64,000 bases of DNA from Methylibium rhizosphaerae. Lineage in GTDB: Bacteria > Pseudomonadota > Gammaproteobacteria > Burkholderiales > Burkholderiaceae_C. The notes under the pieces are model-generated. The model searched no databases, was not told the origin of the DNA, and saw only the letters and a program-made list of their open reading frames with translations. Both the position numbers and the translations under genes were made by a program. The stretch spans positions 62,001-126,000 of the forward strand of contig NZ_SWAR01000002.1 of the NCBI RefSeq assembly GCF_006386545.1, written 5' to 3'. Shown here one piece after another: positions 22,692-27,249 of this stretch (positions within the stretch are counted from its first letter, which is position 1; each line of letters begins with the position of its first letter).

Positions 22692-23888
22692 TCAGACGCG
22701 CTCGAAGATGCCGGCGGCGCCCTGGCCGGTGCCGACGCACATGGTCACCATGCCGTACTTCAGGTTGTGGCGGCGCAGCGCATGCACGACGGTGGCGGCG
22801 CGGATGGCGCCGGTGGCCCCCAGCGGGTGGCCCAGCGCGATGGCGCCGCCCATCGGGTTCACCTTCTTCGGGTCCAGGCCGACGCTGTTGATGACGGCCA
22901 GCGACTGGGCCGCGAACGCCTCGTTCAGCTCGATCCAGTCGATCTGGTCCTGGGTGAGGCCGGCGTACTTGAGCGCGGCCGGGATGGCCTCGATCGGGCC
23001 GATGCCCATGATCTCGGGCGGCACGCCGCGGGCGGCGAAGCTCACGAAACGGGCCAGCGGCTTCAGGTCGTACTGCTTGATGGCCTTTTCGCTGGCCAGG
23101 ATCAGCGCACCGGCGCCGTCACTGGTCTGCGAGCTGTTGCCGGCGGTGACGCTGCCCTTGGCGGCGAACACCGGCTTCAGCTTGGCCAGGCCCTCGAGCG
23201 AGGTGTCGGGGCGCGGGCCTTCGTCGATCTCCACCGTGCGGGTCTTGACCACCTGCTCGCCGGTGGCGAGGTTGGGCACACGAGACACCACCTCGATCGG
23301 CGTGATCTCGTCCTTGAACTCGCCGGCGGCGATGGCCTTGAGCGCGCGCTGGTGCGACTCGAGCGCGAAGGCGTCCTGCGCCTCGCGGCCCACCTTCCAC
23401 TGCGCAGCCACCTTCTCGGCGGTGAGGCCCATGCCGTAGGCGATGCCGACGTTCTCGTCCTTGGCGAACACCTCGGGGTTGAACGAAGGCTTGTTGCCGC
23501 CCATGGGCACCAGGCTCATCGACTCGGCGCCGCCGGCGATCAGCACGTCGGCCTCGCCCACGCGGATGCGGTCAGCGGCCATCTGGATGGCGGTGACGCC
23601 CGAGGCGCAGAAACGGTTGACGGTGACCCCGCCCACCGGGTGCGAGAAGGCCAGCGCCATCGCGATGCGTGCCATGTTCATGCCCTGCTCCCCCTCGGGG
23701 AAGGAGCAGCCGATGATGGCGTCCTCGATCGCCTTGGGGTCGAGCGAGGGCACCTGGGCCATCGCGCTCTTCACCGCGGCGACCAGCAGGTCGTCGGGAC
23801 GCGTGTTCTTGAAGTAGCCGCGGCCGGAACGTCCGATCGGGGTGCGCGTGGCGGCGACGATGTAGGCGTCTTGAACTTGCTTGGCCAT
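22692..23888 (-). CDS. fadA: Acetyl-CoA acyltransferase (beta-ketothiolase)
   Basis: 398-residue thiolase that performs the last step of beta-oxidation, cleaving 3-ketoacyl-CoA with CoA. Catalytic residues: C94 in VNRFCASG, H354 in LGHPLGATG, C384 in MCVGTGQG. The N-terminus MAKQVQDAYIVAATRTPIGR is typical for FadA of Burkholderiales. It belongs with fadB, but the two are separated by about 490 bp holding a DUF559 gene and repeats, so fadA may depend on its own promoter. Confidence 0.94.
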   Translation of the reverse strand: MAKQVQDAYIVAATRTPIGRSGRGYFKNTRPDDLLVAAVKSAMAQVPSLDPKAIEDAIIGCSFPEGEQGMNMARIAMALAFSHPVGGVTVNRFCASGVTAIQMAADRIRVGEADVLIAGGAESMSLVPMGGNKPSFNPEVFAKDENVGIAYGMGLTAEKVAAQWKVGREAQDAFALESHQRALKAIAAGEFKDEITPIEVVSRVPNLATGEQVVKTRTVEIDEGPRPDTSLEGLAKLKPVFAAKGSVTAGNSSQTSDGAGALILASEKAIKQYDLKPLARFVSFAARGVPPEIMGIGPIEAIPAALKYAGLTQDQIDWIELNEAFAAQSLAVINSVGLDPKKVNPMGGAIALGHPLGATGAIRAATVVHALRRHNLKYGMVTMCVGTGQGAAGIFERV

Positions 23889-23890
23889 GT

Positions 23891-24370
23891 CTAGGCTCCT
23901 GTTGATTCAGCTCCCTCTCCCGCCGGCGGGAGAGGGTTGGGGTGAGGTTGGGCGGCTTCGGCGATGACCTGAAGAACGCCTTCAAGGTTGGACAGGACTT
24001 CGTTGTTCCAGAAGCGGAGCACGTGCAAGCCGCAAGACTCGATGACTTGCGTCCGCAGGTCGTCTCGCCGCACGGCATCGCATTGGGCGTGCTGGCCGCC
24101 GTCGATCTCGACGGCGAGGCGCGCTTCAATGCAGGCAAAGTCCAGCACGTAGCCTTCGAGCGGATGCTGGCGGCGGAACTTGAGGCCGCCAAGTTGCCTT
24201 GCGCGCAACTTGCTCCACAACAGCGCTTCAGCGTCGGTGGAGGACCGGCGCAGAGCACGTGCCACCCTCACCCCTGCCCTCTCCCGCGCGCGGGAGAGGG
24301 AGTTGTCGGGCGCACCTGCCCCCTCTCCCGCCTGCGGGAGAGGGTTGGGGTGAGGGTGCATGGAAGCCAT
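23891..24370 (-). CDS. DUF559 (Vsr-like endonuclease fold) protein
   Basis: Core of about 110 residues of the DUF559 family, related to very-short-patch-repair-type nucleases: SSTDAEALLWSKLRARQLGG, FRRQHPLEGYVLDFAC, ARLAVEIDGGQHAQ, LHVLRFWNNEVL. The expected acidic and glutamine residues (DFAC, EIDGGQH) are intact. The ends of the frame are translated repeat DNA: HPNPLPQAGEG near the start and HPNPLPPAGEG near the stop. The ATG at 24370 gives 159 aa; ATG 24361 is another option, and a GTG at 24265 would start at the core and skip the repeats. It interrupts the fadB-fadA pair. Its biological role is unknown. Confidence 0.72.
   Translation of the reverse strand: MASMHPHPNPLPQAGEGAGAPDNSLSRARERAGVRVARALRRSSTDAEALLWSKLRARQLGGLKFRRQHPLEGYVLDFACIEARLAVEIDGGQHAQCDAVRRDDLRTQVIESCGLHVLRFWNNEVLSNLEGVLQVIAEAAQPHPNPLPPAGEGAESTGA
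23913..23947 (+). repeat. REP-like repeat, copy 1 (direct with copy 3)
   Basis: A 24-bp perfect palindrome with arms CCCTCTCCCGCC / GGCGGGAGAGGG is followed by TTGGGGTGAGG. It is 34/35 identical to copy 3 at 24321-24355 in the same orientation. It overlaps the 3' end of the DUF559 frame, 25 bp before the fadA start. Confidence 0.9.
24266..24300 (-). repeat. REP-like repeat, copy 2 (inverted)
   Basis: Same element in opposite orientation: CCTCACCCC, then a 24-bp perfect palindrome with arms CCCTCTCCCGCG / CGCGGGAGAGGG. It differs from the other copies at the palindrome centre and in the two bases after CCCC. With copy 3, 20 bp away, it forms a REP-type inverted pair. Confidence 0.88.
24321..24355 (+). 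repeat. REP-like repeat, copy 3 (direct with copy 1)
   Basis: Palindrome arms CCCTCTCCCGC / GCGGGAGAGGG with a 2-bp centre, followed by TTGGGGTGAGG. It is a one-mismatch direct copy of 23913-23947, so that copies 1 and 3 bracket a 373-bp segment carrying the DUF559 core. It lies 26 bp downstream of the fadB stop. Confidence 0.9.
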
Positions 24371-24380
24371 CTGCTGCAAC

Positions 24381-26765
24381 TCAGTTGCGAACGGGCTTGC
24401 CCGTCTGCAGCATGCCCATGATCCGTTCCTGGCTCTTCGGGTGCTCCAGCAGGCCGCAGAAGTGCTTGCGCTCCAGCGCCATCAGGTATTCCTCGGTCAC
24501 CAGCGAGCCGGCGTCGACGTCGCCGCCGCACACCACGTCGGCGATCAGCGAGCTGATGTGGAAGTCGTGCTGGCTGATGAAGCCGCCGTCGCGCATGTTG
24601 GCCAGCTGGCCCTTGATGGTGGCGATGGCATTGCGGCCGGCCACCGGGAAGGCAGCCCTGGCCGGGGCGCCGTAGCCCGACTCGAACATGGCCTTGGCCT
24701 GTTGCACGGCGACGTACAGCAGTTCGTCCTTGTTCGGCACGATCACGTCGCTCCACAGCAGGTAGCCCAGCTTGCGGCTTTCGATCGCGCTGGTGCCCAC
24801 CTTGGCCATCGCGGCGGAGGTGAAGCCGTCGATCAGGAACTTCTGGATGTCGGCGTTCGCATTGCCGGCGGCGGCCATCTCGGCGGCCCGGCGGGCGATG
24901 TAGGTCAGGCCGCCCGCACCCGGGATGAGGCCCACGCCCACTTCCACCAGGCCCACGTAGCTTTCCATCGCGGCCACGCGGCGGGCCGAGTGGATGGCCA
25001 GTTCGCAGCCGCCGCCCAGGGCGATGCCGCGGATGGCCGAGACCACCGGCACCGTGGCATAGCGGATGCGCAGCATCGCGTCCTGCAGCTTCTTCTCTTC
25101 AGGGGCGATGCCCTTGGCGCCCTTGGCCATGAACACCGGCATCAGCGCCTCGAGATTGGCGCCGGCCGAGAACACGTCGTCCGGCGACCAGATCACCAGG
25201 CCCTTGTAGCTCTGCTCGGCCAGTTCCACCGCCTTCAGCAGGCCTTCGGTGACGGTCGGGCTGATGAGGTGCAGCTTGGCGGTGATGCTGGCGATCAGCA
25301 CTTCGCCGTCCAGCGTCCACACGCGCACTTCGTCGTTCTTGAAGACTTCGGTGCCGGCCTTCAGCGGCTCGACGGCGCCTGAGCCCGACACGTTTTCCGG
25401 GAAGTACTGGCGCTGGTAGACGGCCAGGCCGCTGCGCGGCACGTAGGCGCCCCTGGCCGGCGACCACGAACCTTCGGCGGTGTGCACGCCGGTGCGGCCG
25501 TCGAACACCCAGGCCGGCAGCGGCGCCTTGCTGAGCGCCTTGCCGGCGTCGATGTCTTCCTTGATCCAGTTGGCCACCTGCTGCCAGCCGGCCTCCTGCC
25601 ACAGCTCGAACGGACCCTTCTGGGTGCCGAAGCCCCAGCGCATCGCGAAGTCCACGTCGCGCGCGGTCTCGGCGATGTCGGCCAGGTGCACCGCGGCGTA
25701 GTGGAAGCCGTCGCGCAGGATGGCCCACAGGAATTGCGCCTGCGGGTTGGTCGATTCACGCAGCAGCTTCAGGCGCTCGGCCGGGGCCTTCTTGAGCATG
25801 CGGCCCACGATCTCGTCGGCCTTGCCGCCGGCGGGCACGTACTCGCCCTTGGCCGGGTCCAGGCGCAGGATGTCCTTGCCGACCTTCTTGTAGAAGCCCG
25901 CGCCGGCCTTCTGCCCCAGCGCGCCCTGCTCGATGAGCTTCGCCACCACGGCAGGCGTGCCGTAGGTGGGGAAGAACGGGTCGTCGGCCAGGTTGTCCTG
26001 CAGCGTCTTGATGACGTGGGCCATGGTGTCCAGGCCCACCACGTCGGCGGTGCGGAAGGTGCCCGAGCTGGCGCGGCCCAGCTTCTTGCCGGTGAGGTCG
26101 TCGACCACGTCATAGGTGAGGCCGAACTTCTCGGCCTCGATGATGGTCGCCAGCATGCCGGCGATGCCCACGCGGTTGGCCACGAAGTTGGGCGTGTCCT
26201 TGGCGCGCACCACGCCCTTGCCGACGGCGGTGGTGACGAAGCTCTCGAGCTGGTCGAGGATCTGCGGCTGCGTGGTGGGCGTGGGGATCAGCTCCACCAG
26301 GTACATGTAGCGCGGCGGGTTGAAGAAATGGATGCCGCAGAAGCGCGGCTTGATCTCTTCGGGCAGCGCCTCGGACAGCCTGGTGATCGACAGGCCCGAG
26401 GTGTTGGACGCCACGATGGCGTGCGGCGCGATGAACGGCGCGATCTTCTTGTAGAGATCGAGCTTCCAGTCCATGCGCTCGGCGATGGCCTCGATGATGA
26501 GGTCGCAGTCCTTCAGCTGCTCGAGGTGCTCTTCGTAGTTGGCCTGGCCGATCAGCGCGGCGTCTTCGGGCACGCCCAGCGGGGCCGGCTTCAGCTTCTT
26601 GAGGTTGTCGATCGCCTTGCTGACGATGCCGTTCTTCGGGCCCTCTTTCGCGGGCAGGTCGAACAGCACGACCGGCACCTTCACGTTGACCAGATGGGCG
26701 GCGATCTGCGCGCCCATCACGCCGGCGCCGAGCACGGCGACCTTGCGGACTTGGAATCGACTCAT
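24381..26765 (-). CDS. fadB: 3-hydroxyacyl-CoA dehydrogenase / enoyl-CoA hydratase fusion
   Basis: 794-residue bifunctional beta-oxidation enzyme. The dehydrogenase half comes first: VAVLGAGVMGAQIAAHL (NAD-binding GxGxxG 13-18), FFNPPRYMYLVELIPT and TPNFVANRVG. The enoyl-CoA hydratase half is C-terminal (from about residue 500): DDVFSAGANLEALM, IRGIALGGGCELAIHSARRVAA and VGVGLIPGAGGLTYIA. This order is the reverse of E. coli FadB and usual in Burkholderiales. The ATG at 26765 has GGAG 8 nt upstream. It is followed by the repeat-flanked DUF559 gene, then fadA. Confidence 0.94.
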   Translation of the reverse strand: MSRFQVRKVAVLGAGVMGAQIAAHLVNVKVPVVLFDLPAKEGPKNGIVSKAIDNLKKLKPAPLGVPEDAALIGQANYEEHLEQLKDCDLIIEAIAERMDWKLDLYKKIAPFIAPHAIVASNTSGLSITRLSEALPEEIKPRFCGIHFFNPPRYMYLVELIPTPTTQPQILDQLESFVTTAVGKGVVRAKDTPNFVANRVGIAGMLATIIEAEKFGLTYDVVDDLTGKKLGRASSGTFRTADVVGLDTMAHVIKTLQDNLADDPFFPTYGTPAVVAKLIEQGALGQKAGAGFYKKVGKDILRLDPAKGEYVPAGGKADEIVGRMLKKAPAERLKLLRESTNPQAQFLWAILRDGFHYAAVHLADIAETARDVDFAMRWGFGTQKGPFELWQEAGWQQVANWIKEDIDAGKALSKAPLPAWVFDGRTGVHTAEGSWSPARGAYVPRSGLAVYQRQYFPENVSGSGAVEPLKAGTEVFKNDEVRVWTLDGEVLIASITAKLHLISPTVTEGLLKAVELAEQSYKGLVIWSPDDVFSAGANLEALMPVFMAKGAKGIAPEEKKLQDAMLRIRYATVPVVSAIRGIALGGGCELAIHSARRVAAMESYVGLVEVGVGLIPGAGGLTYIARRAAEMAAAGNANADIQKFLIDGFTSAAMAKVGTSAIESRKLGYLLWSDVIVPNKDELLYVAVQQAKAMFESGYGAPARAAFPVAGRNAIATIKGQLANMRDGGFISQHDFHISSLIADVVCGGDVDAGSLVTEEYLMALERKHFCGLLEHPKSQERIMGMLQTGKPVRN

Positions 26766-26805
26766 CGTTGTTTCTCCAGGTATTCGTTGGAACAGGCGCC
26801 GGCGG

Positions 26806-27249
26806 TCACTCGACCCGCACCCAGGTTTGCGTGCGGTAGAACGGGCCGATGTAGCCGCGCATCTCAAGCTTCCTGCCGCCCTCGACCGGCTTGAGCCGCG
26901 TCTTGTAGGTCTTGCCGTTGTTCGGATCGAGGATCTCGCCGCCGGTCCAGGCTTCCTTGTCCTCGGCGTCCTGCTTCACGTTGCGGATGATGGTGAGCCC
27001 GACCACCGGCTGACCCTTGCGCGCATCGGTGCACTTGTCGCACTTCGCGTCCTGGTTCTTCGGGTCGAAGATCTTCTCGATCCTGCCGCTGAGCACCCCA
27101 CCGCTGTCGGTGATGCGCACCAGCGACTTCTCGGTCTTGCCGTCGTCGTCGATGGTCTTCCACAGGCCCACCGGCGTGTCCTGCGCAAAGGCGGCACCGC
27201 CGGCGGCGAGCGTGAAGCTCAAGGCAAGGCAACGAACCACAGCTCTCAT
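26806..27249 (-). CDS. DUF2147 secreted protein
   Basis: 147-residue protein with a clear Sec signal (MRAVVRCLALSFTLAAGGAAFA) and a mature DUF2147 domain: TPVGLWKTIDDDGKTEKSLVRI, a CDKC motif, KGQPVVGLTIIRN, and GYIGPFYRTQTWVRV at the end. The DUF2147 family is a beta-rich periplasmic domain, often encoded near lipid metabolism genes, with no known activity. It is set between the acyl-CoA dehydrogenase and fadB genes in one direction and is probably co-transcribed with them. Confidence 0.85.
   Translation of the reverse strand: MRAVVRCLALSFTLAAGGAAFAQDTPVGLWKTIDDDGKTEKSLVRITDSGGVLSGRIEKIFDPKNQDAKCDKCTDARKGQPVVGLTIIRNVKQDAEDKEAWTGGEILDPNNGKTYKTRLKPVEGGRKLEMRGYIGPFYRTQTWVRVE

Follow-up and report, generated by a model that had tools for sequence, protein, structure and literature searches.

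A small gene for a DUF559 protein lies between fadB and fadA in Methylibium rhizosphaerae, surrounded by copies of one short palindrome. What kind of unit is this, and what do the gene and the palindromes have to do with each other? DUF559 is known as a putative nuclease, one member of which has been proposed as a Vsr-like repair enzyme (PMC12907096). No published link between DUF559 and repeats was found in the literature searched; preprints and most subscription papers were outside this search, and priority is uncertain. The gene was found in a window of 64,000 nucleotides, the whole stretch of DNA analysed (contig NZ_SWAR01000002.1, positions 62,001 to 126,000 of the forward strand), and coordinates without a genome name are positions in this window.

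Organization of the unit

At 23889-24380, three palindrome copies, each consisting of CCCTCTCCCGCnnGCGGGAGAGGG followed by a TTGGGGTGAGG tail, surround an intact DUF559 nuclease gene. The unit is placed between fadA and fadB because fadA occupies 22692-23888 and the 3' end of fadB begins at 24381. Its parts and neighbours are as follows.

22692-23888, minus strand: fadA-type thiolase gene, adjoining the unit
23891-24379, minus strand: maximal open frame of 162 amino acids with a TTG start and its stop at 23891-23893, probably over-long
23913-23947, plus strand: palindrome copy 1 and tail (CCCTCTCCCGCCGGCGGGAGAGGGTTGGGGTGAGG), tail toward the DUF559 gene; downstream boundary relative to the direction of the gene
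23954-24268, minus strand: intact DUF559 (PF04480) nuclease core, by Pfam profile match
24265-24300, minus strand: palindrome copy 2 and tail, inverted relative to copy 1, tail toward the gene; upstream boundary
24321-24355, plus strand: palindrome copy 3 and tail, tail away from the gene; doublet with copy 2 at 20-bp spacing
24381-26867, minus strand: fadB-type gene (longest frame), adjoining the unit

The enclosed minus-strand frame matches Pfam DUF559 with E=1.9e-37 (127.9 bits, cut-off 20.6) and contains no internal stop. No methyltransferase gene is found between or beside fadB and fadA in the window. An initial annotation had reported an intact core, an inverted third copy, and copies 1 and 3 lying in like orientation around 373 bp with 34 of 35 bases identical; all of this held. 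It had also taken copies 1 and 3 as direct repeats bracketing the unit, which is corrected here. The conserved boundary is formed by copies 1 and 2, which are inverted relative to each other and have both tails facing the gene, while copies 2 and 3 make up a doublet of the same kind as those dispersed elsewhere in the genome.

A pattern search of the window genome (G000, 6.17 Mb) finds 27 exact palindromes of the form CCCTCTCCCN{3,11}GGGAGAGGG and none in the reversed control. At this density about 0.002 would be expected in 430 bp and three are seen, so the palindromes at the unit are not there by chance. The genome has one DUF559 gene and one Y1-transposase gene.

Two in-frame GTG codons of the minus-strand gene lie in the tail of copy 2, at 24271 and 24265, and a purine-rich stretch of copy 2 precedes the probable start codon. 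Judging from sequence alone, translation likely starts at one of these codons rather than upstream of copy 3, and copy 2 probably supplies both the ribosome-binding sequence and the start codon. Since these GTGs are better-placed starts, translation probably does not include the long N-terminal extension, and only the C-terminal 'PHPNPLPPAGEG' tail is clearly encoded by the repeat. The claim of repeat-encoded protein tails at both ends is therefore upheld for the C-terminus only.

Association of DUF559 genes with palindromes

Among 61 genomes of the family to which the window belongs, nine have a small full-length DUF559 gene, and in 9/9 palindromes lie on either side of it. The 16 DUF559 matches in family genomes that are weaker or have long frames all lack flanking palindromes of the CCCTC-type pattern. 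The wider sample consists of 119 loci (80 of them named) from Pseudomonadota, Chloroflexota, Nitrospirota, Kapabacteria, and others, picked by protein match only; 112 of these are testable. A palindrome lies within 250 bp on at least one side in 105 of the 112 and on both sides in 76. Sixty further DUF559 loci behave alike, with palindromes on both sides in 42, on one side in 14, and on neither in 4. Hairpin density reaches 4-11 per kb in the 150 bp next to the DUF559 core, compared with 0.5-0.8 per kb at distances over 400 bp. The tail of the nearest palindrome is readable on both sides in 65 loci, and in 50 of these both tails point toward the gene. Palindromes are also present around plasmid-borne copies in Deinococcus and Picosynechococcus. 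Tight linkage is shown by these counts, and it is very likely that a DUF559 gene and its cognate palindromes form one unit.

Two loci have a peculiar arrangement of repeats. At L019, 63-bp tandem repeats with a palindrome in each follow the DUF559 gene (1809-2200), and the DUF559 frame continues through them into a further coding region, giving an open frame of 641 amino acids. At L247 (genome G440), a palindrome-containing unit of about 219 bp is found in tandem downstream of DUF559 (about 1050-1721 of the reverse complement).

The number of palindromes in a genome follows the presence of the gene. The family genomes with a small DUF559 gene have 28, 31, 34, 47, 69, 78, 85, 91, and 2 palindromes, and more than nine are found in only 2 of the 52 without one. 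Across 398 pseudomonadotal genomes, the 104 that have DUF559 carry a median of 15.5 palindromes and the 294 that lack it a median of 0 (p=6e-43, odds ratio 41). The association survives when permutation is confined to families (z=7.9) or to genera (z=4.5), so genome-level co-occurrence is shown. No palindromes at all are found in 210 of the 294 genomes without DUF559. The genome with two palindromes, G018, has both of them at its DUF559 gene; this unit appears to be a cassette of recent arrival. Three other genomes (G151, G417, and G359) are rich in palindromes and have DUF559 only as stop-ridden or truncated remnants, which is expected if the repeats outlive the gene.

There are exceptions in both directions. 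Twenty-one genomes without DUF559 (at E<=1e-20) have at least five palindromes, including G114 (57), G200 (113), G221 (119), and G321 (34). Conversely, 25 genomes with DUF559 have fewer than five of the exact type counted, partly because palindrome types differ. The RAYT/Y1_Tnp control in the same 398-genome test gives p=0.34, with no effect within families or genera, and no CCCTCTCCC palindromes lie within 1.5 kb of the lone Y1 (RAYT-like) gene of the window genome, L041 (G000:C132:20978-21301). RAYT is thus ruled out as the driver of these palindromes.

Correspondence of enzyme and palindrome types

Palindrome arms vary among loci and include CCCTCTCCC, CCCTCCCC, CCTTCCCCC, ATCTCCCCC, ACCTCTCCCC, CCCCTCTTT, and others. 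Across 109 loci, DUF559 protein distance correlates with arm distance (Mantel rho 0.33, p=5e-4). A test independent of the host is possible within genomes, using 13 genomes that each have at least two diverged DUF559 paralogs (36 paralogs in all). The mean edit distance between left and right palindromes is 2.33 for the same paralog versus 4.75 +/- 0.46 for sister paralogs (p<=5e-5). In G231, for example, ATCTCCCCC, CCTTCTCCC, and ACCTCCCCC each surround a different paralog. The ATCTCCCCC type is found in 12 of 398 genomes, 11 of which belong to one family, and where the DUF559 loci of a genome carry it, 76-183 copies are present. Matching of enzyme and palindrome type is shown by these comparisons. 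Inside genomes, paralog identity is not significantly related to arm distance (rho -0.21, p=0.23). Paralogs sharing a genome are usually diverged, and the DUF559 gene itself therefore rarely duplicates.

Gain and loss of units

In about 34 of 56 family genomes, 8-49 bp separate fadB and fadA. A DUF559 unit occupies this gap in six of the 56 (G000, G006, G018, G021, G036, and G044), and in G045 a single palindrome remains, whose right end is common to the G021 unit. Presence and absence of whole units is thus shown. The six units represent two DUF559 groups with two palindrome types at one junction, which means that the site received units twice or that one unit took the place of another. Empty sites exist, and the relatives are too diverged to define a recognition site split by the insertion.

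Nine other family genomes (G001, G004, G008, G010, G022, G029, G031, G048, and G051) have a different insert of about 520-660 bp at fadB-fadA. It carries an apparent small ORF, with neither DUF559 nor palindromes (L164, L166, L179, L182, L185, L186, L210, L219, and L230). The gap is possibly a recurrent insertion point.

Movement is also indicated at other places. In G440, two DUF559 copies with 97% DNA identity are found at unrelated sites, and the homology begins just inside the upstream palindrome region. Dispersed copies are often arranged as doublets. The doublets in G000 and G005 have their tails inward, 35-56 bp apart, and those in G118 and G122 have their tails outward around a conserved 52-bp core (GTGCCGGCTGA...TTTCATCCTGCACCGA). 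No target-site duplication is recognisable at the inserted or variable palindrome units compared. No synteny was found between G118 and G122 in the first 400 kb, hence no insertion sites could be read there.

The G118 and G122 doublets (e.g., G122:C1:62515 and 154496) resemble a discrete MITE family, with variants of 75 and 86-90 bp. In Rfam, the doublet of copies 2 and 3 in the window gave only sub-threshold matches to eukaryotic microRNA hairpins, which are due to chance.

ycjD and palindromes in E. coli

The DUF559 gene of E. coli K-12 is ycjD (b1289, 1351407-1351760), located between sapF and fabI. Its relatives are found in 3366 of 5426 complete E. coli genomes. Palindromes in a decayed state are found downstream of ycjD, as is the triplex-motif copy listed as no. 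9 in the literature (K-12 1351204-1351239). The upstream side has a different inverted repeat and not the usual palindrome. In L153 (1940-1985) and L158, which cover sapF-ycjD, the inverted repeat directly 5' of ycjD is long and perfect (CACCTCATTCTGACAAG...CTTGTCAGAATGAGGTG) and overlaps the start region.

The ycjD-less strains examined have no palindromes at sapF-fabI. They have instead an RND efflux operon, published as eef, and the locus was rejected as a clean empty site for this reason. Palindrome pairs vary among strains as well. The whole pair of about 100 bp found at hrpB-mrcB in K-12 is absent from AF206 and AR_0017, and a pair has collapsed exactly to one palindrome in 2017.02.03CC (hrpB-mrcB) and in ATCC 25922 (alx-sstT).

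Note that PLSDB lists some chromosome-sized records of E. coli and N. gonorrhoeae as plasmids (NZ_CP141089.1, NZ_OL790696.1, and NZ_CP119142.1).

Predicted fold and conserved residues

YcjD was assigned to the PD-(D/E)XK superfamily before 2005 (PMC1189080). An AlphaFold model was built from 59 aligned DUF559 cores (pLDDT 84). The solved structures closest to it are NGO0050 of N. gonorrhoeae (3hrl), the catalytic domain of I-Bth0305I (3r3p; second-best), and Vsr (1vsr); NGO0050 and I-Bth0305I were likewise matched by a sequence profile search of PDB. Matches to cholera-toxin B in the PDB sequence search (E~0.3) are due to chance. Residues invariant in the 59 relatives include R8, E15, W19, D44, E55, D57, H61, D70, and R86 (aligned-core numbering). 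The model predicts a fold like those of Vsr and homing endonucleases, and the conserved acidic and histidine residues E15, D44, E55, D57, H61, and D70 are candidates for catalysis. The nuclease-type fold with these residues is counted with the points shown, as a prediction of the model.

Comparison with known systems

The closest parallel in logic is RAYT-REP (TnpA-REP, REPIN). In both systems one small DNA-processing gene is flanked by palindromes that are dispersed in its genome, the repeats are often inverted doublets, the repeat type goes with the gene, and repeat abundance depends on the presence of the gene (here a correlation is found for DUF559 and none for Y1_Tnp). The enzymes differ, RAYT being an HUH/Y1 tyrosine transposase and DUF559 a Vsr-type nuclease. 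The repeats differ as well: REPs end in GTAG, whereas a GTAG foot is found in 1 of 390 elements here. Both the GTAG and the CGTC classes of REP (1 and 4 of 390 elements, respectively) are ruled out, as these numbers are below those at random positions.

The palindrome itself has been described. The triplex-motif repeat TM_ECO/PIT, present in 23 copies in E. coli K-12 (Holder et al. 2015, PMC4666352), is the same repeat, with CCCTCTCCC-loop-GGGAGAGGG followed by a GGGTGAGGG-like third strand (compare Table 1 of PMC4666352). Formation of an intrastrand triplex by the E. coli motif was demonstrated in vitro (PMC4666352). The repeat of Enterobacter 638 is CCCTCTCCCxx(x)GGGAGAGGG (PMC2869309). Like the palindromes reported here, TM_ECO/PIT and the Enterobacter repeat occur as inverted pairs, are intergenic, and vary among strains. 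Holder et al. noted instability of the sites at the strain level and no mobility function nearby (PMC4666352). Unlike the present analysis, neither the TM/PIT nor the Enterobacter 638 paper (PMC4666352, PMC2869309) reports an associated gene.

Free-standing homing endonucleases (I-Bth0305I, Vsr-like) share the catalytic fold and the setting of a selfish element. The DUF559 unit, in contrast, has no intron or intein, and its ends are multicopy palindromes rather than a unique split target. Vsr and the Caulobacter protein VsrA, which carries a DUF559 domain, are alike in fold (PMC12907096); unlike Vsr, the window gene has no neighbouring methyltransferase, there is no evidence for mismatch specificity, and no repeat association is reported for Vsr. 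MITEs with an autonomous partner have a similar make-up, an autonomous copy (ends and gene) plus non-autonomous paired ends, but the DUF559 unit lacks a transposase-type enzyme and target-site duplication was not found. The DUF559-palindrome system is therefore likely to fall outside every described enzyme-repeat family, with a logic resembling that of RAYT-REP.

In Legionella experimental evolution, segments with a transposase and DUF559 were recombination hotspots (PMC12308824). This fits the model of DUF559 and its repeats and does not prove it.

Possible mechanism and alternative explanations

The initial annotation had described an insertion into a normally adjacent gene pair, had compared the unit to RAYT-REP, and had suggested that the nuclease mobilises or maintains its own palindromes. 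The insertion holds, given the empty sites in the family. Both comparative checks that it had proposed, a search for such sites and a count of palindromes at DUF559 genes, came out in favour of its interpretation: palindromes are enriched at DUF559 genes everywhere examined, and their genome-wide number tracks the gene. The comparison with RAYT-REP holds as logic and fails as homology, the enzyme being of Vsr/PD-(D/E)XK type and the palindromes having no GTAG foot. The suggested activity fits the comparative data and remains an inference without biochemistry.

On balance, with a modest preference, DUF559 is inferred to act on its palindromes and so to drive their spread or upkeep. The unit would then be a 'master' copy, in which one DUF559 gene lies between inverted palindromes of the type its nuclease recognises. 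DUF559 would bind the cognate palindrome once this is extruded (hairpin or cruciform) or folded in single-stranded form, and nick it. Repair or copying of the broken element would then spread, homogenise, and occasionally collapse the palindromes, and the scattered single and paired palindromes would be non-autonomous, REPIN/MITE-like offspring. PD-(D/E)XK/Vsr-type nucleases are not known to join strands, and host repair must therefore supply the copying. The palindrome as the substrate, the nick as the first step, and the subsequent copying are all inferred; that the nuclease nicks or cuts an extruded hairpin, with host repair coming after, is likewise an inference from fold and repeat shape. 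What stands against this reading is that no biochemical or genetic evidence has DUF559 touching a palindrome. Also counting against it are the lack of a resolved target-site duplication, the exceptions to co-occurrence in both directions, the rare duplication of the gene itself, the non-significant relation of paralog identity to arm distance inside genomes, and the different inverted repeat upstream of ycjD.

Three other explanations can be considered. DUF559 may be a homing-type nuclease that parasitises the palindromes, cutting at or inserting between repeats that were spread by other means. Among the solved relatives with a known function, the homing endonuclease I-Bth0305I is the nearest, DUF559 is located inside palindrome arrays, and two clades with two palindrome types occur at the same fadB-fadA junction. 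This is unlikely, however, since most genomes without DUF559 (210/294) lack palindromes and would offer scant independent targets, paralogs have their own matched types on both sides, and in G018 the palindromes are at the DUF559 gene only. Alternatively, the palindromes may control the DUF559 gene, as its ribosome-binding site and start, its terminator, or an autoregulatory operator to which DUF559 binds, the dispersed copies being by-products or a regulon. In favour of this, copy 2 in the window probably gives the start codon and the purine-rich stretch before it, and palindromes lie just beyond the coding core on both sides. This explanation is very unlikely, as it leaves unexplained the tens to hundreds of dispersed copies tracking the gene and the REPIN-like doublets, and the E. 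coli copies showed neither promoter nor terminator activity in an earlier test that Holder et al. cite (PMC4666352).

It is equally improbable that DUF559 serves the host by repairing mismatches as Vsr does or by processing hairpins, and that repeat-rich genomes keep it to deal with the repeats or 5mC deamination. Vsr is among the structural matches, and Caulobacter VsrA has a functional link to a cytosine methyltransferase (PMC12907096). Housekeeping does not predict, however, a gene inside its own palindrome type, paralog-specific types, or the situation in G018, and the repair role of VsrA is itself only proposed, without biochemical demonstration (PMC12907096).

Implications

Beyond the preferred reading of a nuclease acting on its own palindromes, a bolder one can be put forward, for and against which the case seems evenly balanced. 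DUF559 would be a second, bacteria-wide class of repeat-associated enzymes unrelated to RAYTs, each member specifically cutting a triplex-forming palindrome of its own type and in this way propagating a population of such palindromes within the genome. Triplex/PIT repeats, in E. coli as in hundreds of further species, would descend from DUF559 master elements, ycjD being one.

Few short repeats in bacteria are as common as these palindromes, which have long been known in E. coli without a known driver. Linking them with a small nuclease of unknown function gives each partner a role and offers a reason for the reported instability of these sites from strain to strain. The origin of the repeats becomes directly testable in E. 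coli K-12 through ycjD, and many natural pairs of enzyme and palindrome are now at hand for studies of specificity. If the link with the nuclease holds, the strategy of combining REP-like repeats with an enzyme would have arisen at least twice, with unrelated enzymes.
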